From the NCBI RefSeq assembly GCF_004795255.1, contig NZ_SSBQ01000002.1, positions 2,995,501 through 3,059,500 of the forward strand: a DNA stretch of 64,000 bases, written 5' to 3'. Below are positions 1 through 17,976 of this stretch, in pieces. A program made the position numbers and the translations under genes. Origin of the DNA: Streptomyces sp. RKND-216 (GTDB taxonomy: Bacteria; Actinomycetota; Actinomycetes; Streptomycetales; Streptomycetaceae). Position 1 is the stretch's first letter, and each line of letters opens with the position of its first letter. The notes under the pieces were generated by a model that worked only from the letters and a program-made list of their open reading frames with translations, was not told where the DNA came from and ran no database searches.

Positions 1-594
1 ACCGCCGCCACGTTCGCGAACCCGGTGCTCATCACCGGCGCCGCGCTGCTGATGTGGCTGTCCACGGCCCTGCACGAGCTGGCGCACGGTGTGGTCGCCG
101 TGCGCTTCGGCGGCACCGTCGGCGAGATCGGGCTGCGCTGGAAACCGGTCCCGATCATGTACTGCAGCGTGGAGAACTACCTCTTCCTGCCCCGCCGCCG
201 GGACCGGATCTTCACCGCGGTCGCCGGGGCGGTGGCGAACCTGCTGTTCCTGCTGCCGTTCTGCGCGCTCTGGCTGTTCGTCCCCGTCGACGACGCCACC
301 CACGACGGGCTGGCCGGGCTGCTGCTCATCGGCACCGTCCAGGCGCTGGCCATGCTGCTCCCGTTGCCGCCGCTGGACGGCTACAAGGTGGTGAGCCAGG
401 CCGCCGGCGCCACCGCCCTGGCCGCCTCCAGCCGCGACTACCTGCGCCTCGCCCTGCGCCGCGACCCCGCGGCGAAGCGGTACCCGCGCCGTGCCCGTGC
501 CGTCTACACCGCCTACGGGCTCGGCTCCACCGCCGTGGTCGCCGGGCTGGCGGTCCTCGCCGCCCTGCTCGTCGCCTCGCTGTTCCACCCCTGA
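1..594 (+). CDS. M50-type (site-2-protease-like) membrane metalloprotease, 5' end missing
   Basis: The reading frame is open from base 1, so the start lies upstream of the window and only the last 197 codons are seen. A zinc-protease HELAH motif (HExxH) sits in a hydrophobic segment near position 73, and a PPLDG motif that supplies the third ligand in M50 proteases lies near 370. Several membrane helices follow. M50 enzymes cleave substrates within or close to the membrane. The gene is 11 bases ahead of an ABC transporter and in the same direction as a YcaO gene, so it probably belongs to the peptide-maturation operon, perhaps for leader removal or immunity; that role is inference. Family assignment is fairly secure, function is not. 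Confidence 0.75.
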   Translation, partial: TAATFANPVLITGAALLMWLSTALHELAHGVVAVRFGGTVGEIGLRWKPVPIMYCSVENYLFLPRRRDRIFTAVAGAVANLLFLLPFCALWLFVPVDDATHDGLAGLLLIGTVQALAMLLPLPPLDGYKVVSQAAGATALAASSRDYLRLALRRDPAAKRYPRRARAVYTAYGLGSTAVVAGLAVLAALLVASLFHP

Positions 595-605
595 AGGAGA
601 ACCAC

Positions 606-1586
606 GTGTCCACCACCCCCACGCCACCCCCCGGCCCGGCCGCCGCCGCGGACACCGGGCCCGACACGGACGCCGCAGGTACCGGCCCGGAGCCCGCCGT
701 CGAACTGACCGACGTGCACAAGCGCTACGGCGACACCCGCGCCGTCGACGGCGTCTCCCTCACCGTCCGCCGCGGTGAGTTCCTCGGACTGCTCGGCCCC
801 AACGGCGCGGGGAAGACCACGCTGGTGGAGATCATGGAAGGGCTGCGGCAGGCCGACTCCGGCACCGTCGGCGTCCTCGGCACGTCGCCCTGGCCCCGCA
901 ACCTGGCGCTGCTGCCCCGCATCGGCCTGCAGACCCAGGCGTCGGCCTTCTTCGTCCGCCTCACCGCGCGCGAGCACCTGCGGACCGTCGCCGCGCTGTA
1001 CGGCGCCGCCCGCGACGCCGCCGAACGCACCCTCGCCGTGGTCGGCCTCACCGAACAGGGCGACACCCAGGTGGAGGGCCTGTCCGGCGGCCAGCGGCAG
1101 CGGCTGGCCATCGCCTCGGCGCTGGTGCACGGCCCGGAGCTGATCTTCCTCGACGAGCCCACCGCCGCCCTCGACCCGCAGGCCCGCCGCGACCTGTGGC
1201 AGGTGCTGCGCGACCTCAAGGGCGAGGGTCGCACGATCGTCTACACCACTCACCACCTCGACGAGGCCGAGACGCTGTGCGACCGCGTCGCGATCATCGT
1301 GAACGGCCGCATCACCGCACTGGACACGCCCGCCCGGCTGGTCGCCGCCGGCAGCGGCAACACCCGCCTGCTCGTGCCCGCCGACCGGCTCACCGAGGCC
1401 CGCGCCCGCGAACTCCCCGGCGTGCTCGACGTGCAGGTCGACGGCGACGTGGTGGTGCTGGAAACCACCGAGGCGGGCCCCCTGCTCAGCGCCGTCGAGG
1501 CGGTCGCCGGGCTCCAGGGCGTCCGCACCCGCACCGCCAGCCTGGAGGACGTCTACCTGCAACTCACCGCGACCGGCGACCGCTGA
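606..1586 (+). CDS. ABC transporter ATP-binding protein of the peptide cluster
   Basis: A 326-aa ATPase of the drug/peptide-export type. It shows Walker A (GPNGAGKT), the LSGGQ signature, Walker B (LIFLDEP) and the switch His (TTHHLDEAE). The GTG start is chosen because GAAGGAGA lies 5 bases upstream; an open frame continues upstream without a ribosome site. The first 35 residues are a Pro/Ala/Thr-rich tail before the domain proper. The C-terminal 80 residues resemble the extra domain of CcmA/DrrA-type subunits. It pairs with the ABC-2 permease downstream, and the two would form a homodimeric-ATPase exporter. Given the YcaO and precursor next door, export of or immunity to the modified peptide is the likely job (inference). 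Confidence 0.9.
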   Translation: MSTTPTPPPGPAAAADTGPDTDAAGTGPEPAVELTDVHKRYGDTRAVDGVSLTVRRGEFLGLLGPNGAGKTTLVEIMEGLRQADSGTVGVLGTSPWPRNLALLPRIGLQTQASAFFVRLTAREHLRTVAALYGAARDAAERTLAVVGLTEQGDTQVEGLSGGQRQRLAIASALVHGPELIFLDEPTAALDPQARRDLWQVLRDLKGEGRTIVYTTHHLDEAETLCDRVAIIVNGRITALDTPARLVAAGSGNTRLLVPADRLTEARARELPGVLDVQVDGDVVVLETTEAGPLLSAVEAVAGLQGVRTRTASLEDVYLQLTATGDR

Positions 1587-1648: not shown

Positions 1649-2404
1649 ATGAGTGCGTACGCGGCGCTGACCACGGCCGGCTACCGGGCCTACACGCGCG
1701 ACAAGACCACCCTGTTCTTCTCCTTCGCCTTCCCGCTGCTCTTCCTCGTCGTCTTCGGCCTGATCTTCTCCGGCCAGGACGTCGACCAGAGCGGCAAGCC
1801 CTACATCAGCTACATCGCTCCCGGCGTGCTCTCCTGGGGCGTCGCCAACTCCGCCGTGTTCTGGATCGGCTTCGTCCTCATGCAGTGGCGGCGGGACGAC
1901 CTGCTGCGCCTCATCCGCATGACGCCCACCCGCCTGCCCACCGTGCTCGGCTCGCGCTACGTACTGGCGCTCGCCGTCGGCGTGGCGCAGACCGTGCTGT
2001 TCGTCGGCGTCGCGATGCTTCCCGCGTTCGGCCTGGAGGTCGACGGCCGGGTGCTGTTGATGATCCCGGTGCTGATCCTCGGCGTGACCGCGTTCCTCGC
2101 GCTCGGCGTCATCGTCGGCACGTACGGGAAGACGCCGGAGGCCGTCGCCGCCATCGCCAACTGCATCATGGTGCCGATGGCGTTCCTGTCCGGCGCGTTC
2201 TTCCCCATCGACGCCATGCCGGAGTGGATCCAGACCGGCTCCCACGTGCTCCCGCTGCGCTGGTTCAACGAGGGTGTGTCCGTCGCGCTGCTCGGTGACG
2301 GCAGCACCGCAGACGTCGCGCTGGCCTGTGCCGGGCTCACCGGCTTCACCGTCCTCTTCGGGCTGGTCGCACTGCGCACCTTCCGCTGGAGCGACCGCGC
2401 ATGA
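1649..2404 (+). CDS. ABC-2 type permease, partner of the upstream ATPase
   Basis: A 251-aa integral membrane protein with about six hydrophobic segments and the ABC-2 layout: an N-terminal amphipathic stretch, first helix near residues 22-42, and a C-terminal GAFFPIDAMPEWIQ loop typical of DrrB-like permeases. It starts 62 bases after the ATPase gene and ends in an ATGA overlap with the YcaO gene, implying translational coupling. It should form the channel of a peptide or antibiotic exporter. The substrate is inferred from neighbours only. Confidence 0.88.
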   Translation: MSAYAALTTAGYRAYTRDKTTLFFSFAFPLLFLVVFGLIFSGQDVDQSGKPYISYIAPGVLSWGVANSAVFWIGFVLMQWRRDDLLRLIRMTPTRLPTVLGSRYVLALAVGVAQTVLFVGVAMLPAFGLEVDGRVLLMIPVLILGVTAFLALGVIVGTYGKTPEAVAAIANCIMVPMAFLSGAFFPIDAMPEWIQTGSHVLPLRWFNEGVSVALLGDGSTADVALACAGLTGFTVLFGLVALRTFRWSDRA

Positions 2405-4449
2405 CGACGACGCCGACCGTGCCGCCGCCCGCGGACGCCGCCGCCTCGCCGGGGCCGCGCGCGCTGGAGTCCGCGCGCGCCCACCTGCAGCGCGAACTCG
2501 ACCCCCGCTACGTGCAGTTCCCCGCCTGCGCCGCCGACGCCGGACCGCAGCCGCTGGTGGTGCCGCTCGGCGCGGCGGACGTGCTCGGCGACGCCGCCGG
2601 CGACCGGTACGCCGCGGTGCGGCCGCACGCGACCGTGCACCTCACCGCCCGCGCCGTACTCATCGGGCCGTGGGGCGGCGATGCGGAGGCCACCGGCTGC
2701 GGGCGGTGCCTCGGCATGCGCTGGCAGCGGCTGCGCAGCCGCTCCGAACGCGAGGCCCTGGAGGGACGGCAGCCCCTGCAGGGCGCCGAGGACTGGCCGT
2801 TGCTCACACCGTTCGCGGTGGACGCCGTACGTGCCGCCTGGTCGTCGGCGTTCGGCCCGGTGCACGAGTCGGACCCGACCCCGGCCGGTCCGGTGGCCGC
2901 GCTGCGGCCGCCCCGGGCCGTACCGACGTCACCCGGAGCCGAAGGACTGCCGCGGGTGACACGCGTCGACCTGGCCACGCTCGCCCTGGCCACCTTCCCG
3001 ATGCTCCCCGAACCGCTGTGCCCGCACTGCGTGCAGCGTGTGCCGGACACCCGCGAGGCGGGCCGGATACCGCTCGGCCCGGCGCCCAAGCCGGACCCGG
3101 AGGGCTACCGCGTCCGGCCGCTGGAGTCGTTCCCGCTGCCCGGTGACGCGCTGGCCAACCCGGTGTGCGGCGCCCTCGGCTCGGGCACCTGGATCAACCC
3201 GGCCTCGACCACCACCGCCCCCGTCGCGGGCAGCGTCTTCGTACGCGGCTACGCCGGGCTCAACGACGTGACCTTCAGCGGTCAGGCCAGCCGCTACACC
3301 ACCAGTCGGCTGCTCACCTACCTGGAGGGTCTGGAACGCTACGCCGGCACCCATCGTCGTCGTCCCGAACAGCCCGTCGTCGCCTCCCTCGACGCCCTCC
3401 GGTCGGCCGGGGAGCCGGTGCTGGACCCCGCCGCGTGCGGCTTCTACGCCCCGGAGACCTACGCCACCGACCCCATGGTCAGCCCCTTCGACCCGGCCCG
3501 GGCGATCCCCTGGCTGTGGGGCCACTCGCTGCGCGACGACCGGCCGATCCTGGTGCCGGCCCGGCTGGTGCACTACAGCGCGGGTGTGGCGGCGGACAAC
3601 TTCGTCTTCGAGTGCTCCAACGGCTGTGCCACCGGCGGCAGTCCGGTGGAGGCGATGCTGTTCGCGCTGCTGGAGCTGATCGAGCGGGACGCCTTCCTGC
3701 TGGCCTGGCACACCCGCACTCCGCTCACCGAGGTCGACCTCGGCTCCTGCACCGGCCGCACCGTGCGGTCGCTGCTGGACCGGGCCGGCATGCACGGCTA
3801 CGACGTGCGGGCCTACGACACGCGCATGGACCTGCCGGTCCCCGTGGTCACCGGGCTCGCGGTGCGCCGGGACGGCGGCCCGGGCACGCTGTCCTTCGGT
3901 GCGGCCGCCGGGTTCGACCCGGAGGACGCCGTCGAGTCCGCGCTCTCCGAGGTGCTCACCTACATCCCGCATCTGCCGTACCAGGTCACCGAGCGGCAGG
4001 CGGAACTGGAGGCGATGGCAGCGGACTTCGGCCGCGTCCTGCACCTCAAGGACCACGCCCAGCTGCACGGTCTGCCCGGCATGGCGCACCACTCGCGGGA
4101 GTTCCTGGAACCGGCCGGACGCGGCGGCATCCCGGAGCTGTTCGCCGACTGGTACCGGGAACGGCCGAGCACCGGCGACCTCGTGGACGACCTGCGGCTG
4201 CTCGTCGACGCGCTGGCCGGCGCCGGCCACGACGTCATCGCGGTGGACCAGACGGCGCCCGAGCAGCGGCGGATGGGCCTGCACACGGTCTGCGCGACCG
4301 TTCCCGGGCTGCTGCCGCTCGACTTCGGCTGGAACCGGCAGCGGGTGCTGCGGACGCCCCGGCTGCTCACCGGGCTCAGACAGGCGGGCAGACGGGCCGA
4401 CGACCTGCCGGCAGCCGACGTCAAACGCGTACCGCACCCGTTCCCGTAA
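2401..4449 (+). CDS. YcaO cyclodehydratase fused to ThiF-like leader-binding region (TOMM)
   Basis: A 682-aa fusion. Residues about 1-215 look like the degenerate ThiF/E1-like partner protein of TOMM systems, with two CxxC pairs (C100/C103 and C207/C210) suited to a structural zinc. Residues about 230-682 are a YcaO domain: the two ATP-site helices read LLTYLEGLERY and ALLELIERDA, then the DQTAPEQR strand and a proline-rich end (VPHPFP) like the PxPxP tail of azoline-forming YcaOs. Such enzymes use ATP to turn Cys, Ser and Thr of a precursor into thiazolines and oxazolines. It overlaps the permease by 4 bases. No dehydrogenase or LanB dehydratase is in the window; they are expected upstream. 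The natural substrate is probably the convergent peptide at 4618-4794. Confidence 0.9.
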   Translation: MTTTPTVPPPADAAASPGPRALESARAHLQRELDPRYVQFPACAADAGPQPLVVPLGAADVLGDAAGDRYAAVRPHATVHLTARAVLIGPWGGDAEATGCGRCLGMRWQRLRSRSEREALEGRQPLQGAEDWPLLTPFAVDAVRAAWSSAFGPVHESDPTPAGPVAALRPPRAVPTSPGAEGLPRVTRVDLATLALATFPMLPEPLCPHCVQRVPDTREAGRIPLGPAPKPDPEGYRVRPLESFPLPGDALANPVCGALGSGTWINPASTTTAPVAGSVFVRGYAGLNDVTFSGQASRYTTSRLLTYLEGLERYAGTHRRRPEQPVVASLDALRSAGEPVLDPAACGFYAPETYATDPMVSPFDPARAIPWLWGHSLRDDRPILVPARLVHYSAGVAADNFVFECSNGCATGGSPVEAMLFALLELIERDAFLLAWHTRTPLTEVDLGSCTGRTVRSLLDRAGMHGYDVRAYDTRMDLPVPVVTGLAVRRDGGPGTLSFGAAAGFDPEDAVESALSEVLTYIPHLPYQVTERQAELEAMAADFGRVLHLKDHAQLHGLPGMAHHSREFLEPAGRGGIPELFADWYRERPSTGDLVDDLRLLVDALAGAGHDVIAVDQTAPEQRRMGLHTVCATVPGLLPLDFGWNRQRVLRTPRLLTGLRQAGRRADDLPAADVKRVPHPFP

Positions 4450-4617: not shown

Positions 4618-4794
4618 TCAGGCGCTGCAGGAGGTGGTGCTGGTGGTGCTGGAGCAGGTCGAGGTCGACGAGCAGGAGGTGGAACCGGCCAGGACGACCT
4701 CGGCCGCGTCGGAGTAGTCCGAGATCTCGAAGGTCTCCGATTCGAGCTCCAGGATCTCGTCGGCGAGCGTGGCGAGCTGCGTCTTCTCAGCCAT
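4618..4794 (-). CDS. Thiazolylpeptide-type (thiopeptide/TOMM) precursor peptide
   Basis: A 58-aa peptide on the minus strand with ATG 5 bases after GAGGAGA. Residues 1-37 form an acidic leader with the ELESETFEISDY motif typical of thiazolylpeptide-type precursors, ending VVLAG. The following 21 residues contain 10 Ser, 7 Thr and 3 Cys and end in TSCSA, so 20 of 21 can be cyclised or dehydrated. That is what a YcaO/LanB pathway uses as substrate. The leader/core border after Gly37 is my estimate. It faces the YcaO gene across a shared terminator and is transcribed away from the M20 gene. Precursor status is well supported by composition and context; the final product is not predictable from this window. 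Confidence 0.88.
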   Translation of the reverse strand: MAEKTQLATLADEILELESETFEISDYSDAAEVVLAGSTSCSSTSTCSSTTSTTSCSA

Positions 4795-4892
4795 GGTGTC
4801 TCCTCAAGTCGCGCCGGCGGCCGGCTGTTCCGGCTGCGCGCCCCGGCGTCGGAACCATTGGACCCGGAGCCACTGGCAGATCCGCACGGCTT

Positions 4893-4988: not shown

Positions 4989-6350
4989 ATGGCCACGGCG
5001 GCGGTCGCGGACCCGGCGGGCGCGGACCCGGGCCCCGGCCCGCGCGGTCCGGCCGTGCCCTCCGGTGTCCTGCGCGCCGCCCTGGAGCTGTACCTGGATC
5101 TGCACGCCCATCCCGAGCTGTCCGGTGCGGAGTCGCGCACAGCCGCCCGGTTCGCCGACGCCCTGGAGCGTGCCGGCTGCACGGTGACGCGGGGGGTGGG
5201 CGGGCACGGCGTGGTCGGCGTGCTGACGTCCGCCCCATCCGGGGACGGGAACGGACGCCCGCCCGGCCCCACCGTGCTGCTGCGCGCGGAGCTGGACGCG
5301 CTCCCCGTCGCCGAGAACACCGCCCTCCCCTACGCCAGTTCGGTGCCCGGGGTGATGCACGCCTGCGGCCACGACCTGCATCTCGCGGCGCTGTACGGCG
5401 CCGTGGCGATGCTCGCCGCCCGCCGGGAACGCTGGCGCGGCACCGTGCTCGTCGTCGGCCAGCCGGCCGAGGAGACCCTGGACGGCGCCCGGGCCATGCT
5501 CGAGGACGGCCTCTACGCACGCTTCGGCGTCCCCGACGTCGTGCTCGCCCAGCACACCGCGCCGCTGCCGGCGGGCACGGTCGCCCACGGCGACGGACCG
5601 GTGCTGGCGGGCAGCACCGCGCTGGACGTCCGCATCCACGGCCGCGGCGGGCACGGGGGTGCGCCGCAGCTGACCGTCGACCCGGTGGTCACAGCCGCCG
5701 CGGCCGTACTGCGCCTGCAGACCGTGGTGTCGCGGGAGACCGCGCCCGCCGAGCAGGCCGTGCTGACCGTCGGCGCGCTGCACGCGGGCGAACGGGCCAA
5801 CCTCGTTCCCGAGTCGGCCGCCCTGTCGGTCGGCCTGCGCGCCTTCTCCCCGGGCGCGCTGGCGCGGATGGAGACGGCCGTCGAACGGATCGTGCGCGGC
5901 GAGTGCGCGGCGGGCGGCTGCCCGCGCGAACCGGAGTTCGCCGTCGCCGCGCGCTCACCCGTCCTGCAGCCCGACGCGGACCTGACGACCACCCTGCGGG
6001 GTGGCCATGCGCGTCTGCTGGGGACGGCGCGGGTACTCCCGTGGCAGGCTGGAACCGCGGCCGAGGACTTCGCGTGGTTCGGGGCCGCGGGCGCGGACGT
6101 GCACGGCGCTGCCGGAGTGCGTACCGCGTACTGGATGCTGGGGGTGACCGGGGCCCGCACATGGCGGGCCGCCGCGCGAGCGCATGCCGGCGGTGCGTAC
6201 GGCATACGTGGCGAAGCGCGCGGCGTTCCGGCCAATCACGCACCGGAGTTCGCGCCGGACGTGCGTGTCGCGCTGCCCACGGGCATCGCGGCGATGTGCG
6301 ACGGCGCCGAAGCGATTCTGGACGTTCCGGAGGGGGAAACGTGCCGATGA
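4989..6350 (+). CDS. M20 family amidohydrolase/peptidase of the peptide cluster
   Basis: A 453-aa metallohydrolase of the M20D group (N-acyl-amino-acid amidohydrolases, IAA-amino-acid hydrolases and relatives). Metal-site motifs are complete: HACGHDLH at 124-131 (Cys126, His128), the PAEET pair Glu161/Glu162, His189, and a C-terminal NHAPEF His. The ATG is chosen because AAGGAGG lies just upstream; the frame is open further but has no ribosome site. It is divergent from the precursor gene and overlaps the next gene by ATGA. M20 enzymes cleave amide bonds of small acylated amino acids or peptides, so it could trim the leader, edit the C-terminal amide or inactivate the product. None of these roles can be read from sequence alone. 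Confidence 0.88.
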   Translation: MATAAVADPAGADPGPGPRGPAVPSGVLRAALELYLDLHAHPELSGAESRTAARFADALERAGCTVTRGVGGHGVVGVLTSAPSGDGNGRPPGPTVLLRAELDALPVAENTALPYASSVPGVMHACGHDLHLAALYGAVAMLAARRERWRGTVLVVGQPAEETLDGARAMLEDGLYARFGVPDVVLAQHTAPLPAGTVAHGDGPVLAGSTALDVRIHGRGGHGGAPQLTVDPVVTAAAAVLRLQTVVSRETAPAEQAVLTVGALHAGERANLVPESAALSVGLRAFSPGALARMETAVERIVRGECAAGGCPREPEFAVAARSPVLQPDADLTTTLRGGHARLLGTARVLPWQAGTAAEDFAWFGAAGADVHGAAGVRTAYWMLGVTGARTWRAAARAHAGGAYGIRGEARGVPANHAPEFAPDVRVALPTGIAAMCDGAEAILDVPEGETCR

Positions 6351-6628
6351 CGAGTGTGACCAGGGCCGACAGCAGTACGGTCCTCAGCTGCGCCTATATG
6401 GACATCGTGGTGGTGCGCCGGGAGCCCTGTGCTCCCGGCGGCGAGACCACGGTCGTCCGGCTGCTGGGACTGCTGCCGCCCCACTGGAGTTGCCTGCCGG
6501 AGGTCGAACGGGACCGTGTGGTGCTGCACGTGATGCTGGGCAGCACCGACGGCTGTGACGCCGTCCGCACCGAGGTGGAGGAGGTGATGGCGGACCCGGC
6601 CATGCGCGGCTGGTTCGCCGAGACCTGA
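6347..6628 (+). CDS. Unrecognised 93-aa protein coupled to the M20 hydrolase
   Basis: I do not recognise this family. The ATG overlaps the M20 stop as ATGA, with AGGGGG 10 bases upstream; a GTG 6 bases earlier is an alternative start. The product has four Cys (15, 28, 49, 70), a central LLGLLPPHWSCLP stretch, no signal peptide and an acidic C-terminus ending WFAET. Tight coupling suggests it works with the hydrolase, for example as a partner subunit, a carrier or an immunity factor. A double hairpin ends the transcript right after it. Confidence 0.7.
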   Translation: MTSVTRADSSTVLSCAYMDIVVVRREPCAPGGETTVVRLLGLLPPHWSCLPEVERDRVVLHVMLGSTDGCDAVRTEVEEVMADPAMRGWFAET

Positions 6629-6688: not shown

Positions 6689-7669
6689 TCAGACCCAGCC
6701 GTGTTCGCGGGCCAGCAGCGCCGCCTGGGCGCGGCTCGCCGCGCCCAGCACCCGCATGAGGTCGGCCACGTGCCGGCGGTAGGTGCGTACGGAGATCCCC
6801 AGCTCCCGCGCGCCCGCCTCGTCCTTGCCGACCGACACCATCGAGGCGAGCACCCGGCGCTCCATCTCGGAGAGCGTCGGTGTGCCGTCCGGCTCGCTGA
6901 TCGCGGTGAGGAGGTCCTCGGCCTGGTCCCAGATCTTCTCGAAGAGCGCGATGATGTTGCACACCAGGCCGCTCTCGTGGGCCAGCAGCGCCCCGCGCGA
7001 GGTGTCGCCGGGGTCGACGGGCACCAGGGCGACCCGGCGGTCGTAGACCAGGATGCGTTCGGAGGCGTCGTCGGCGACGCGGATCTGGGCGCCCTTGTGC
7101 GCCAGCTCCCTCAGGTAGGCGACGGTCGGCGGGTGGGTGGTCGCCTTGCGCAGCACGACGTTCCGGATGCGCACGCCGCGTCTGAGGCAGCGCATGTCCA
7201 GCGGCCGGGCGTGGTCGATGTTGGCCGGGGTGAGTTCGGTGTAGGGCTCGACCGAGAGGATCTCCTCGCGGGCGAAGAACGCCAGGTCGTCGATCCGGCT
7301 GCGAATCTGTGCCAGGTCGGTGAGCTGCTCCACTCCCTGCGGGGCGGGCGTACGCGAGCCCATCTCCGCGCGTAGAGCATCGATGACGTAGCGTGACTGG
7401 GTCACCCGCATGATCTCTTCGTGGAGTTCGTGCAGGCGGCGGTCCATCAGCCGGGCCATGGCGATGTCGGGGTTGGTCGGGGTGTACGCGTGGCGTTCGC
7501 CGCTGTCGCGCACCAGGCCGAACTCCCGGAGCCGTTCGAGCGCTCGCTTCGCGACGGGCGCGTCGATGTGCATCTTCACGTGGAGGTCGTCCGCAGGGGT
7601 GCCGGGATGGCGGAGGAAGTGCCGGTAGATCTCTTCTTCCTCCGCGGAGATGCCGAAGACTGACATCAT
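6689..7669 (-). CDS. TrmB/LuxR-type transcriptional regulator beside the peptide cluster
   Basis: A 326-aa regulator with two DNA-binding parts. An N-terminal TrmB-like winged helix (about residues 8-70) precedes a long linker domain, and a C-terminal LuxR-type helix-turn-helix (about 262-326) contains ELGISVRTYRRHVADLM. This architecture is common in Streptomyces next to RiPP and other antibiotic clusters. I place the start at the first Met of MMSVFG, where similarity to the family begins; an upstream open frame of 75 codons looks non-coding. It converges on the M20/93-aa operon and is a likely pathway-specific switch. The inverted repeat at 4893-4926 is a plausible target. Confidence 0.85.
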   Translation of the reverse strand: MMSVFGISAEEEEIYRHFLRHPGTPADDLHVKMHIDAPVAKRALERLREFGLVRDSGERHAYTPTNPDIAMARLMDRRLHELHEEIMRVTQSRYVIDALRAEMGSRTPAPQGVEQLTDLAQIRSRIDDLAFFAREEILSVEPYTELTPANIDHARPLDMRCLRRGVRIRNVVLRKATTHPPTVAYLRELAHKGAQIRVADDASERILVYDRRVALVPVDPGDTSRGALLAHESGLVCNIIALFEKIWDQAEDLLTAISEPDGTPTLSEMERRVLASMVSVGKDEAGARELGISVRTYRRHVADLMRVLGAASRAQAALLAREHGWV

Positions 7670-7956
7670 GTTGGTACCCAAGTCGGCCCCCTGCTGCTCG
7701 GATGGCGAACCGGTGGTGTGGCTCGTTGGTCGGGCGAGCACCACGGCGCGCGAGCAGAGCGCCGGGCGGGTCGAGGCCAGCGTATGCCGTGAACAGCCAC
7801 AGGTGCAGTGCGAGGAGGCAACGGAAGTGGAACCTGTGGACGAACCGTGATCGATGTCCTCGCTCTGCGTGGCGGTACCGGTTCGTAGGGACACGCACGG
7901 TACTCAAGTTGCCCGATGGACAACGAAGTTGTCGCAGATTCAACAGTCCCGTCCGC

Positions 7957-13777: not shown

Positions 13778-15871
13778 ATGCAGCGGCCAGAGGGCACGAC
13801 GGGTCCGGTCGGAACGACGGTGGCGGAACGCCCGCCGGGGACGCGCGAGGGCGCGCCGCCCCGCGAGCAGAGGTTCCGCGGCGACGTGGAGGGACTGCGG
13901 GCGCTGGCCGTGTGCGTGGTCCTGGCCTACCACGCGGGAGCGGCCACGTTCGCCGGGGGCTACGTCGGCGTCGACGTGTTCTTCGTCGTCTCGGGATATC
14001 TGATCACCGGCCTGCTGCTCCGGGAACTCCAGCAGACCGGCAGCATAGCCCTGACGCGGTTCTACGCCCGTCGCATGCGGCGCCTGCTTCCGCTGGCCTG
14101 CCTGGTGCTGCTCACGGCGGCCGCGGCGGCATGGCTGCTCTTCTCGCCGGTCGAGCGTCAGCAGGTCTTCGAGGACGTCATCGCCTCGGCGCTCTACGCG
14201 GTCAACTGGCAGCAGGCGGCAGAGGCGGTCGACTACTCCGCGGTGGGCACCGCCGCGAGCCCCGTCCAGCACTTCTGGTCCCTCTCCGTGGAGGAGCAGT
14301 TCTATCTCGTCTGGCCGCTTCTGCTGCTCGCCTGCGGTCTCGGCAGCCGACGACGCGCACCCCGGGTCCGTCTGGCATTCGGCCTGGGATCCGTCGCCGC
14401 CGCTTCCTTCGCCTACTCCGTAGTGCTGACGACCACCGAGGCGGGCGTGGCCTACTTCTCCACGCTCACCCGGGGATGGGAGCTGGCGGCCGGGGGACTG
14501 CTCGCCCTGGTGCCGACCGCGCGTCTGCGTGAACTCCCTCGCCGGGCGCCCGCGGTGCTGGGCTGCGGCGGCCTCGCCGCCGTCCTCACCTCCGTCACCG
14601 TCTACGACGACACGACGCCGTTCCCCGGCGTGCCCGTGCTGCTGCCGGTGCTGGGCACCGTCGCCCTCATCGCCGCCGGCACCGCGGGCCCCCACCCGGT
14701 CGCCCGGGTCCTGGAGCTCCCGCCCGTCCGCTACCTCGGCCGGGTGTCCTACTCCTGGTATCTCTGGCACTGGCCGGCCATCGTCTTCGCGACCGCCTTC
14801 TTCTCCGGTCTGCCCACCTCGATCCTCCTGCTCGTGGTGGTGCTCTCGCTGATTCCCGCCGCACTGAGCCACCGCCTGGTGGAGGAGTATTTCCGCCGCG
14901 CCCGCGCGTTCGCGCCGAACGGCCGCAGCCTGGCCCTGGGCGGCGGGTGCACGGCGCTCGCCGTCCTCGCCGCTGCGCTCTCCTGGAACAGCGTGCCGCG
15001 GGTGCCGCAGGCGGAGCCGCACGAGGTCACCGGTGCCCGGTCGTTGCTGGGCGGTGAGCCGCTGCAGCACACCGCGGACGCCTTGCGCCCGCTGCCGGAG
15101 AAGGCCGCCGAGGACAAGGGCCGGGCGCACCGGGACGGCTGCCTCGTCGCCCAGCGCGCCACCCGGTCCCCCGCGTGCGTCTACGGCGACACCACGGCCG
15201 GCACGACCGTCGTGCTCTATGGCGACTCCCACGCCATGCAGTACGCCCCGGCCCTGGAACGTGTCGCCCAGAAGCGGAAGTGGCGGCTGGTCGTGCTCAC
15301 CAAGTCCGGCTGCACGCCGGCGGACCTCCCCACCTGGAACCCCCGGCTCAAGCGGGAGTACACCGAGTGCGCGGAGTGGCGCGAGCGGACGCTGGAGCGC
15401 ATCGAGCGGGACGAGAAACCCGACCTGGTGGTGACCGGAAACCTGGCCACGGTGCGCGCCGTCGCCGACGGCGACCGGCTGGGGGCCGAGGACAGCGCCC
15501 GCCGCGTCCGGACGGCCTACGCCGACTCCTTGGAGCGTCTGCAGCGCGCGGGAGCGCGGACCGTCGTGGTCGCGGACAACCCGCACCCGCCCGAAGACGT
15601 GCCCGCCTGTGTCTCCGCACACCTGGAGGATCTCTCGCAGTGCGTCGTGCCCGAACGCACCGGACTGGACTTCACGCCGGTCAACCGCCAGGCGGCAGGG
15701 GACGTCTCCGGCGCACGGCTGATCGACCCGGGCGAGGCGTTGTGCCGGGACGGTGTCTGCCCCGCGGTGATCGGCAACGCACTCGTCTACCGCAACGGTG
15801 CGCACCTGACGGCGACGTACATGGAGACGATGGCCGACTGGCTGGACGGCGAGCTTCCCTCCGTCCGCTGA
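13778..15871 (+). CDS. OafA/YrhL-type membrane acyltransferase with C-terminal SGNH domain
   Basis: A 697-aa protein. Residues about 30-370 form an acyltransferase-3 domain with ten or so helices and the FRGDVEGLRALAV and YHAG motifs, then WSLSVEEQFYLVWP. Residues about 430-690 form an extracytoplasmic SGNH domain with a GDSH block (LYGDSHAMQYAP) and the C-terminal NGAHLT His. Such proteins move acyl groups, often acetyl, onto cell-wall polymers, polysaccharides or secreted molecules. The start is uncertain: an in-frame GTG at 13733 would add 15 residues. Converges with the SpoIIE gene; their shared hairpin overlaps both stops. Confidence 0.9.
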   Translation: MQRPEGTTGPVGTTVAERPPGTREGAPPREQRFRGDVEGLRALAVCVVLAYHAGAATFAGGYVGVDVFFVVSGYLITGLLLRELQQTGSIALTRFYARRMRRLLPLACLVLLTAAAAAWLLFSPVERQQVFEDVIASALYAVNWQQAAEAVDYSAVGTAASPVQHFWSLSVEEQFYLVWPLLLLACGLGSRRRAPRVRLAFGLGSVAAASFAYSVVLTTTEAGVAYFSTLTRGWELAAGGLLALVPTARLRELPRRAPAVLGCGGLAAVLTSVTVYDDTTPFPGVPVLLPVLGTVALIAAGTAGPHPVARVLELPPVRYLGRVSYSWYLWHWPAIVFATAFFSGLPTSILLLVVVLSLIPAALSHRLVEEYFRRARAFAPNGRSLALGGGCTALAVLAAALSWNSVPRVPQAEPHEVTGARSLLGGEPLQHTADALRPLPEKAAEDKGRAHRDGCLVAQRATRSPACVYGDTTAGTTVVLYGDSHAMQYAPALERVAQKRKWRLVVLTKSGCTPADLPTWNPRLKREYTECAEWRERTLERIERDEKPDLVVTGNLATVRAVADGDRLGAEDSARRVRTAYADSLERLQRAGARTVVVADNPHPPEDVPACVSAHLEDLSQCVVPERTGLDFTPVNRQAAGDVSGARLIDPGEALCRDGVCPAVIGNALVYRNGAHLTATYMETMADWLDGELPSVR

Positions 15872-15900
15872 ACGGGCGGGGCCGCCGACCCCGTTCAGCG
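15866..15900. terminator. Bidirectional terminator overlapping two stop codons
   Basis: CGCTGAACGGG (15866-15876) pairs perfectly with CCCGTTCAGCG (15890-15900), and the loop holds further GC pairing. The left arm contains the acyltransferase stop, the right arm the SpoIIE-phosphatase stop. Confidence 0.8.
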
Positions 15901-17976
15901 GCGGGTGATGCGGGCGATGAGCAGGGCGATGTCGTCGTGGTGGTCGGGGTGCCGCAGCGCGCGCAGCAGCCGGTCGCAGGTCTCCTGGAGCCCGGCCCCG
16001 GGCGTGAGGAGTTTCCGCAGCAGGGCCAGCCGTTCGTCGATGTCCTGGCCGCGCACCTCCACCAGGCCGTCGGTGTAGAGGACCAGTTCGTCGTCCGGGC
16101 GCAGCCGGACGGCGGTGCTGTGGAAGGGGACGGTGCCCACGCCGAGCGGGGCGCCGGTGGGCAGGTCGAGGAGCTGCGCGGGCAGCCCGGGGCGGGCCAG
16201 CACCGGTGGCAGGTGCCCTGCCGAGGCGAGCCGGCACTCGCCGGTGGCGGGGTCGTACACGGCGTACAAGCAGGTGGCGATCGACTGCTCCAGGCCGGTG
16301 CTGCTGCGGTCGACGCTGCGCAGGATGCCGTCCGGCTCCAGGTGGAGGTGGGCGAGCGCGCGGATGGTCGTCCGCACCTGGCCCATGGTCGCGGCGGCGG
16401 TGACTCCGCTGCCCATCACGTCGCCGACCACCAGCGCCGTCCTGCCACCCGCCAGCGGGATGACGTCGAACCAGTCCCCGCCGACTTCGCTGGCCGCCCC
16501 TGCGGGCTGGTAGCGGTAGGCGATCTCCAGGCCGGGCTGCGGCTCGGGGAGCTGCGGCAGCAGGGAGCGCTGGAGGGTGAGCGCGGTGGCCCGCTCCCGC
16601 TGGTACCAGCGCGCGTTGTCGATGGAGATCGCCGCCCGGCCGGCCAGTTCGCGGGCCAGCACGACGTCGTCCTCGTCGAAGGGCTCCGGGTTGCCGATGC
16701 GCTTGAGGTCGAGCGCGCCGAGCACCGTGCCGCGGGCGATGAGCGGGACGGCCAGGTAGGAGTGCAGCCCGGCGCGGTCGAGGAGCCGCGCCGACTCGGC
16801 GTCGCGGGCGATGAGGGCCAGGTCGGTGGGGCGCACCCGGGGCACGCGGACGGGGGCGCCGGTGGCGACGCACCGGGCGACCAGCCGGTCGGTGCCGTAG
16901 CGGGCGGCCTCGCCGACCGGGTCGGCGGCGCGGGCGGCCTCGGTCGGGTCCGCCTCGGCCAGCGCCAGCGCCCGGAACACCGGCGGCCCGGATGCCTCCC
17001 CGGGCCCGCCGCGGTGCTCCAGGACGTCCTCGAGGATGTCGACGGCGGCCAGGTCCGCGAGGCGGGGGACGACGGCGTCGGCGAGTTCGCGGGCGGTCTG
17101 CTCCAGGTCCAGGGTGGTGCCGATCCGTGCGGTGGCGTCCGCGATGGTGGTCAGCCGTTCCCGGGCGCGGGCCGCTTCGGTCGCCGCCTCGTGCTGCTGG
17201 GTGATGTCGCGCAGCGCGACGGTGAGCCCCAGCACGTCGCCGCCGGCCGACTCGAGACGGAAGTAGGAGAGGTGCCAGGCGTGCTCGTGGTCCGGGTCGC
17301 CTGCCGGGCGGCCCAGGACGGGCTGGTCGCGCAGCGGCGTCCCCGTCCGCAGGACGTCCCGCATCACCGACTCGGCCGTGTCGGAGTCGACGAACGGCAG
17401 GATGTGCCGGACGCTGCGGTCGAGGCGGGCGTGCGGCGGGAGGCCGGCGATGTCGCCCAGCGCGGGATTGACGCTGACGGTGCGCAACCGGGTGTCGAAG
17501 ACCGCGACTCCGATCGGAGACTGGGCGACCACGCGGGTGGACAGCGCGACCTCGCGCTCCACCTGGCGCACGGTGCCCTGGTCGGTCGCCAGCCCCAGCG
17601 CGTAGGGGTCGCCGCGGTCGTCCGTCAGCCGCATGTTGCGGAACTCCAGCAGGCGCACTCCGCCGTCCCGGTGGCGGACCGGGAACACGCCGGCCCACGC
17701 ACCGCTGCTTTCGGCCATGACCTCGGCGAAGAGCTTCTGCGCGCGGTCGCGGTACTCCGGGGGGACCAGCGTCCGTACTGCCGGACGCCCGAGCACCTCC
17801 GACGCGCGGAAGCCCATCAGCTCCTCGGCCTGCGGGCTCCACAGCACGATGCGCCCGGAGGCGTCGATCACCACGGCGGCGACGGCCAGGACGTCCATCA
17901 GTCCGCCGGGCGGCGAGGGGGCGAAAGAGGGGCGGTCCTCCTCGCCGACCCCGGTGCGGGACCCGTCGGTGACCAT
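15895..17976 (-). CDS. PAS-PAS-GAF sensor with SpoIIE/PP2C serine phosphatase domain
   Basis: A 693-aa cytoplasmic sensor phosphatase. Two PAS domains (about 25-145 and 150-275; VVIDASGRIVLWSPQAEELMGF, then VFDTRLRTVSVNPAL), a GAF domain (about 290-445) and a C-terminal SpoIIE/PP2C domain (about 475-693; GGDWFDVIPL, VGDVMGSG, DELVLYTDGLVE) follow in order. Metal-binding Asp residues of PP2C are present. Such proteins dephosphorylate anti-anti-sigma factors and so control alternative sigma factors in stress or development. The ATG is preferred because GGAGGGAG lies 9 bases upstream. No anti-sigma partner is adjacent. Confidence 0.92.
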   Translation of the reverse strand: MVTDGSRTGVGEEDRPSFAPSPPGGLMDVLAVAAVVIDASGRIVLWSPQAEELMGFRASEVLGRPAVRTLVPPEYRDRAQKLFAEVMAESSGAWAGVFPVRHRDGGVRLLEFRNMRLTDDRGDPYALGLATDQGTVRQVEREVALSTRVVAQSPIGVAVFDTRLRTVSVNPALGDIAGLPPHARLDRSVRHILPFVDSDTAESVMRDVLRTGTPLRDQPVLGRPAGDPDHEHAWHLSYFRLESAGGDVLGLTVALRDITQQHEAATEAARARERLTTIADATARIGTTLDLEQTARELADAVVPRLADLAAVDILEDVLEHRGGPGEASGPPVFRALALAEADPTEAARAADPVGEAARYGTDRLVARCVATGAPVRVPRVRPTDLALIARDAESARLLDRAGLHSYLAVPLIARGTVLGALDLKRIGNPEPFDEDDVVLARELAGRAAISIDNARWYQRERATALTLQRSLLPQLPEPQPGLEIAYRYQPAGAASEVGGDWFDVIPLAGGRTALVVGDVMGSGVTAAATMGQVRTTIRALAHLHLEPDGILRSVDRSSTGLEQSIATCLYAVYDPATGECRLASAGHLPPVLARPGLPAQLLDLPTGAPLGVGTVPFHSTAVRLRPDDELVLYTDGLVEVRGQDIDERLALLRKLLTPGAGLQETCDRLLRALRHPDHHDDIALLIARITRR

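Follow-up and report, generated by a model that had tools for sequence, protein, structure and literature searches.

What does a 58-amino-acid gene make if its last 21 codons specify almost nothing but serine, threonine and cysteine? The gene (4618..4794, minus strand) lies in a 64,000-nucleotide stretch of the Streptomyces sp. RKND-216 genome (G000; 5.6 Mb, 99.9% complete), referred to here as the window (G000:C2:2995501-3059500, where C2 is contig NZ_SSBQ01000002.1), and an earlier note on the sequence had proposed it as the precursor of a new member of the thiazolylpeptide family. We propose with reasonable confidence that the gene belongs to a locus for a ribosomally synthesized and post-translationally modified peptide (RiPP), the product being a hypermodified, pyridine-less peptide of azoles and dehydroamino acids, related to thiopeptides and assembled by a goadsporin-like logic. 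Such a product would probably be linear.

The precursor gene starts with ATG, 5 nucleotides (nt) behind a GAGGAG ribosome-binding site read from the sequence (4800..4805, minus strand), and encodes a leader of about 37 amino acids (aa) and a core of about 21 aa, with a putative cleavage position. Translation bears out both the short minus-strand reading frame that the earlier note described and its core composition: 20 of the 21 C-terminal residues are Ser, Thr or Cys (3 Cys and 17 Ser/Thr). The runner-up among the 466 open reading frames (ORFs) of at least 30 aa in the window reaches 12 of 21, and 12 of 21 is likewise the highest count for any ORF in 60 first-order Markov windows. Berninamycin-type cores are similarly Ser/Thr-rich. 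For a core spanning S1 to A21, the unmodified [M+H]+ would be 1976.737, from which every azole takes 20.026 and every dehydration 18.011. A Pfam scan of the precursor gave no match; in profile searches it passed TIGR03892, the NCBI thiazolylpeptide precursor model to which the earlier note had pointed (50.6 bits, cut-off 25), and NF033400 (41 bits, cut-off 30).

The cluster around this gene begins left of the window, in flanking DNA examined as locus L005, and all of its genes up to the precursor are on the plus strand. The first, for an AfsR/SARP-type regulator (L005:2608-4629), is followed (about L005:4628-6829) by a gene for an F protein that combines a leader-binding part with a degenerate YcaO part. 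The leader-binding model TIGR03882 is passed (41.1 bits, cut-off 36.9), the YcaO part matches PF02624 over profile positions 80-321 (48.8 bits), and the ocin-ThiF model TIGR03693 scores below its cut-off (71.8 against 561.9 bits). Then come a fused YcaO cyclodehydratase, YcaO1 (L005:6810-8831), which passes the cyclodehydratase test TIGR03604 (295.5 bits, cut-off 219.25); a SagB dehydrogenase (about L005:8765-10501; TIGR03605, 123.2 bits, cut-off 78.4); and a split LanB dehydratase, whose parts LanB-N (L005:10539-13331; PF04738, 164.7 bits) and LanB-C (L005:13328-14437, 369 aa; PF14028, 145.3 bits) are the only matches to their families genome-wide. LanB and SagB genes had been anticipated left of base 1, and that is where they are. 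A second fused enzyme, YcaO2 (2401..4449, plus strand, 682 aa), joins a leader-binding, C-like part to a YcaO part (PF02624, 259.5 bits; TIGR03604, 297.7 bits; TIGR03882, 80.9 bits). It is 42% identical to YcaO1, and its gene converges on the precursor gene, the face-to-face arrangement that had been noted before. C-terminal PHPFP is linked to azoline-forming YcaOs. YcaO2 ends in this motif, which was present in 67/67 and 65/65 relatives examined for the two YcaO proteins; because both also have a near-full YcaO domain, both are probably active.

Whether these enzymes make a thiopeptide depends on the [4+2] pyridine synthase, given as class-defining in the relevant passages of two papers (PMC8120280, PMC9247985). 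None was found left of base 1, where the earlier note had advised looking, or elsewhere in the genome: PF14028, NF045556 and TIGR03891 all pick out the same protein, LanB-C, and no second protein of this type was found genome-wide (one sub-threshold TIGR03891 match, 12 bits). On the pyridine-synthase model NF045556, whose cut-off is 325, LanB-C reaches 95.9 bits, within the range of 83-104.6 bits spanned by elimination partners from genomes that have real pyridine synthases (7 of 14 partners, among those listed). An H[ML]xxNR motif occurs in 15/15 LanB-C proteins of the window's family and in 14/14 elimination partners, as opposed to 0/14 pyridine synthases, and the stretch HMTNNR is invariant in 26/26 aligned LanB-C sequences. 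In a tree, the family falls outside the pyridine synthases with support of 100/100. On present evidence, then, 'thiopeptide-related' is an apt label, but 'new thiopeptide' is not if a pyridine is meant. Of the proposed new thiazolylpeptide-family member, the precursor, LanB and SagB stand and the pyridine synthase does not. Nor is the precursor rare, as the genome counts below indicate.

We then asked how the core varies. A motif search of 142 loci (L006-L147), 32 of which (L086-L117) were chosen for other genes, recovered 97 precursors in 93 loci: 66 in 63 of 80 loci found through LanB-N (the best 80 of 97 relatives) and 31 in 30/30 loci from an order-wide precursor search, including the window's own (L118). 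The motif requires a core rich in Ser, Thr, Cys, Ala or Gly, so invariance is demonstrated for precursors of that kind, and the 30 further loci, as best matches of the order-wide search, lean towards likeness; phmmer without any demand on core composition returned the same 66 precursors in the 80 LanB-N loci. Across 81 distinct sequences, the core shows no variation at 14 of its 21 positions (two Micromonospora precursors have two extra residues before the core, so that their leader is shifted in the site counts). Cys exchanges with Ser or Thr at sites 1, 2, 4, 10, 14 and 20; site 4 is Cys in 56, Ser in 13 and Thr in 12 sequences, site 10 is Cys in 77 and Ser in 4, and site 1 is Cys in 6. Site 12 is Ala in two. 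Such swaps would be expected of azole-forming sites. Of the seven invariant serines, all but 18 (hence 3, 5, 6, 8, 11 and 15) are spelled with TCN codons in some members of the family and AGY codons in others; what has been kept is therefore the amino acid and not the DNA. Pairwise among 82 distinct sequences, 19718 core codon differences leave the amino acid unchanged and 3439 change it, 3279 of the latter staying within Ser/Thr/Cys. We preferred these counts to the core ratio of non-synonymous to synonymous change (pN/pS = 0.547), because TCN/AGY switches are counted as non-synonymous steps and inflate it. By the codon outcomes, selection acts on the precursor gene at the protein level.

The cluster as a whole is similarly conserved. 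The 80 LanB-N relatives are mostly from Streptomyces, with two from Micromonospora and one from Sphaerimonospora; the nearest, in Streptomycetaceae bacterium MP113-05, is 86% identical. With score thresholds of our own choosing, the 58 of 80 loci that have both 10-kb flanks all contain the genes for SARP, F, YcaO1, SagB, LanB-N, LanB-C (after LanB-N in 58/58), an M50-type membrane metalloprotease and an ABC transporter ATPase. The protease (386 aa) is encoded across the window's left edge (L005:14434-15594, plus strand, = G000:C2:2994934-2996094), with the 3' part of the gene at 1..594; it matches PF02163 (31.9 bits) and, below the cut-off of 300, the daptide_HExxH model NF041824 (92.1 bits). 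The ATPase (606..1586, plus strand, 326 aa; PF00005; drrA model 227.2 bits, below cut-off) and an ABC-2 permease (1649..2404, plus strand, 251 aa; PF01061, 101.5 bits) form an exporter that is near the precursor gene but not, as the earlier note held, next to it, since YcaO2 lies between. Permease and YcaO2 are each present in 57/58 loci; the precursor and an M20 peptidase/amidohydrolase (4989..6350, plus strand, 453 aa; PF01546, 89.6 bits; TIGR01891, 261.6) are each present in 56/58. A single plus-strand order from SARP to M20 is common to 54/58 loci, the exceptions being two (Micromonospora) with M20 at the opposite end and two with genes absent. Of 391 genomes sampled from the order, 68 gave a precursor match (E <= 0.001); 3 of these are weak and 65, including the window's own genome, are close (at least 79% identity). 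A phylum-wide sample gave matches in 4/396 genomes, again counting the window's own, all in one genus.

Gene content, order, families and conservation were computed here; the chemical steps of the following pathway we infer from characterised relatives. The F protein would bind the acidic leader, and the two fused YcaO cyclodehydratases would form azolines at a subset of core Cys, Ser and Thr, the best candidates being sites 1, 2, 4, 10, 14 and 20, where Cys and Ser/Thr replace each other among relatives. Oxidation of the azolines to azoles would be the task of SagB. LanB-N may then glutamylate the remaining Ser/Thr using Glu-tRNA, and LanB-C eliminate the glutamate to leave dehydroalanine (Dha) or dehydrobutyrine (Dhb). 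The M50 protein is a candidate leader protease: its presence in 58/58 loci and its distant likeness to the daptide protein would fit proteolytic leader release, as opposed to pyridine-forming pathways, in which, according to passages in two reports, the leader is expelled by the cycloaddition step (PMC9247985, PMC7210931). Export of the product would fall to the ABC-2 transporter, the M20 peptidase may trim the peptide and the SARP protein would turn the cluster on. Goadsporin offers a precedent in the portion of its literature considered here, where YcaO, SagB and a split LanB yield azoles and Dha, and azoles precede the dehydration that needs them (PMC5303826). For lactazole, the corresponding portion gives an azoles-first order as a hypothesis and the order of enzyme addition as critical (PMC7210931).

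The most serious challenge to a pyridine-less product is a true thiopeptide, in which LanB-C would be bifunctional, performing both elimination and [4+2] cycloaddition, or another enzyme would build the pyridine. Besides the TIGR03892 precursor, several observations weigh on that side. The nearest solved structure to LanB-N is 6ec7 ('Lantibiotic dehydratase domain protein', 139 bits), which we take to be TbtB of thiomuracin. The predicted LanB-C fold is nearer to pyridine synthases, TbtD and PbtD being closest, than to LanB domains, in a comparison that leans this way but did not decide between elimination and cyclisation; at 369 aa, LanB-C is longer than the segments matched in elimination partners (299-349 aa); and the tree resolves into three separate groups, so it does not by itself pair LanB-C with those partners. 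The NF045556 score and the HMxxNR motif nevertheless fit an elimination protein, and the protease gene would be superfluous to a pyridine pathway. Moreover, the part of the lactazole work on core requirements has Ser1 needed as Dha for the pyridine (PMC7210931), whereas site 1 of the window's family, should the core indeed begin there, can be Cys, as in the 6 of 81 sequences above. We thus regard a true thiopeptide as rather unlikely.

A product cyclised by thioethers (lanthipeptide-like) or otherwise, with Cys adding to Dha/Dhb, seems improbable. Although a dehydratase and core Cys are both present, the cluster has no LanC-like gene, the genome's three LanC-like matches being at C2:0.77, 0.91 and 3.9 Mb, and two cyclodehydratases would compete for the Cys. 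Similarly little credence goes to an azole-only polyazole with the LanB pair in a different role, such as PEARL-like, tRNA-dependent amino-acid addition; the relevant passage of one source does allow LanB-like proteins other roles (PMC11212132), but here LanB-C follows LanB-N throughout and HMTNNR never varies. It is very doubtful that the cluster is decayed and silent: two relatives lack the precursor and M20 genes (L013 and L077, the former also without the permease and YcaO2), yet none of the 13 cluster genes in the RKND-216 genome contains an internal stop and core change across the family is mostly synonymous. Two known classes were also considered as candidates and rejected, namely lanthipeptides, because the cluster has no LanC cyclase, and dehydrazoles, because the only DUF4135 match (C2:776052-777173) is over 2.2 Mb from the cluster. 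That match and the LanC-like match at 0.77 Mb (both within G000:C2:774675-777173) share one 1948-aa frame, which probably encodes a LanM-type lanthipeptide synthetase away from the cluster.

With the pyridine-less azole and dehydroamino-acid peptide as the preferred reading, the cluster can be set against known systems. It shares with thiopeptides of the thiomuracin/GE2270 type the TIGR03892 precursor, F-type leader-binding protein, fused YcaO, SagB and split LanB; unlike them, it has no pyridine synthase gene that we could find, two fused YcaOs plus F, an M50 protease and a nearly invariant core. Goadsporin, as far as the two accounts used here describe it, likewise has a fused YcaO, SagB and split LanB without a [4+2] enzyme (PMC4603692, PMC5303826). 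Here, by contrast, there are two cyclodehydratases, an F protein and a thiopeptide-type leader, and LanB-N is far (38 bits) from 9jhq, a biosynthetic protein of goadsporin, which is nonetheless among its nearest solved relatives. No goadsporin-type acetyltransferase was found among the cluster proteins, to which that search was confined, and instead of a goadsporin-type peptidase-ABC fusion there are ABC proteins without a peptidase domain and a separate M50 gene. Coryneazolisins, which are predicted only and were compared by description, resemble the window's cluster in having two D proteins, LanB-like dehydratases, no cycloaddition enzyme and a Ser/Thr/Cys-rich core; they differ in coming from Corynebacterium, with one discrete D protein, an Ile-interrupted core and, in the relevant section, no mention of an F protein (PMC4603692). 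Dehydrazoles such as carnazolamide also unite azoles and dehydrated Ser in one hypermodified peptide, but in the part of their description used here the dehydratase is DUF4135, not a split LanB (PMC10676384). That section of PMC4603692 notes the absence of a cycloaddition enzyme in goadsporin and coryneazolisins, and mentions thiopeptide clusters that have an extra fused cyclodehydratase. Given these precedents, each element is known; their combination, and its conservation, appears new.

Excerpts from three published papers list 'LAP, thiopeptide' clusters with 4% similarity to fluostatins in S. albidoflavus (PMC11678301), a 'thiopeptide-lantipeptide' cluster in J1074 and in two relatives (PMC4018334) and, in S. 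lavendulae CCM 3239, the strain of locus L076, a 'Thiopeptide, LAP' cluster entered as 'Not reported' (PMC8510958). Such 'LAP/thiopeptide' labels in Streptomyces likely refer to the window's cluster. Among the matches listed from openly licensed literature we found no description of the peptide and no named product, a weak absence; nor did openly licensed papers match the precursor letters or name TIGR03892 together with thiopeptide and Streptomyces. Streptomyces is among the most-searched antibiotic producers, yet no product was found for a precursor present in about one-sixth of the sampled genomes of the order. Two YcaOs acting on one Ser/Thr/Cys tract, together with the natural swaps, offer a good test of how YcaO and LanB enzymes divide chemically similar residues between them, and the cluster is also informative about the relation of thiopeptide pathways to linear azole peptides. 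A bolder and more tentative idea is that of a separate RiPP class spread through Streptomyces, with a near-fully modified core, two specialised cyclodehydratases and a split LanB, whose structure, nearly frozen by selection, may make it a conserved signal or a factor in development and not a diversifying antibiotic; or, more radically, that one LanB-C does both elimination and cyclisation.

A 93-aa protein with no Pfam match is encoded beside M20 (6347..6628, plus strand), with a similar ORF in 22/58 loci, and beyond it lies a TrmB/LuxR-type regulator (6689..7894, minus strand, 401 aa; PF01978 and PF00196), present in 26/58. In L013, the ATPase gene adjoins LuxR at about 14881-16046, the stretch from permease to M20 being gone, which reflects either a deletion in that relative or an assembly fault; in L077, precursor and M20 are absent within the locus. 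Motif patterns for divergent copies gave no match in either locus, and neither has a recognisable precursor. Two or three precursor genes occur per cluster in L022 (19192-21848), L054 (18885-19633) and L120; the L022 and L054 copies differ in the core, one L022 copy having Ala at site 12. In L043 (975-1229), L056 (590-841), L060 (980-1219) and L080 (958-1242), the precursor stands ahead of the SARP gene on the plus strand and its core Cys have shifted from sites 4, 10 and 19 to 1, 14 and 19, which gives the impression of a re-patterned product.
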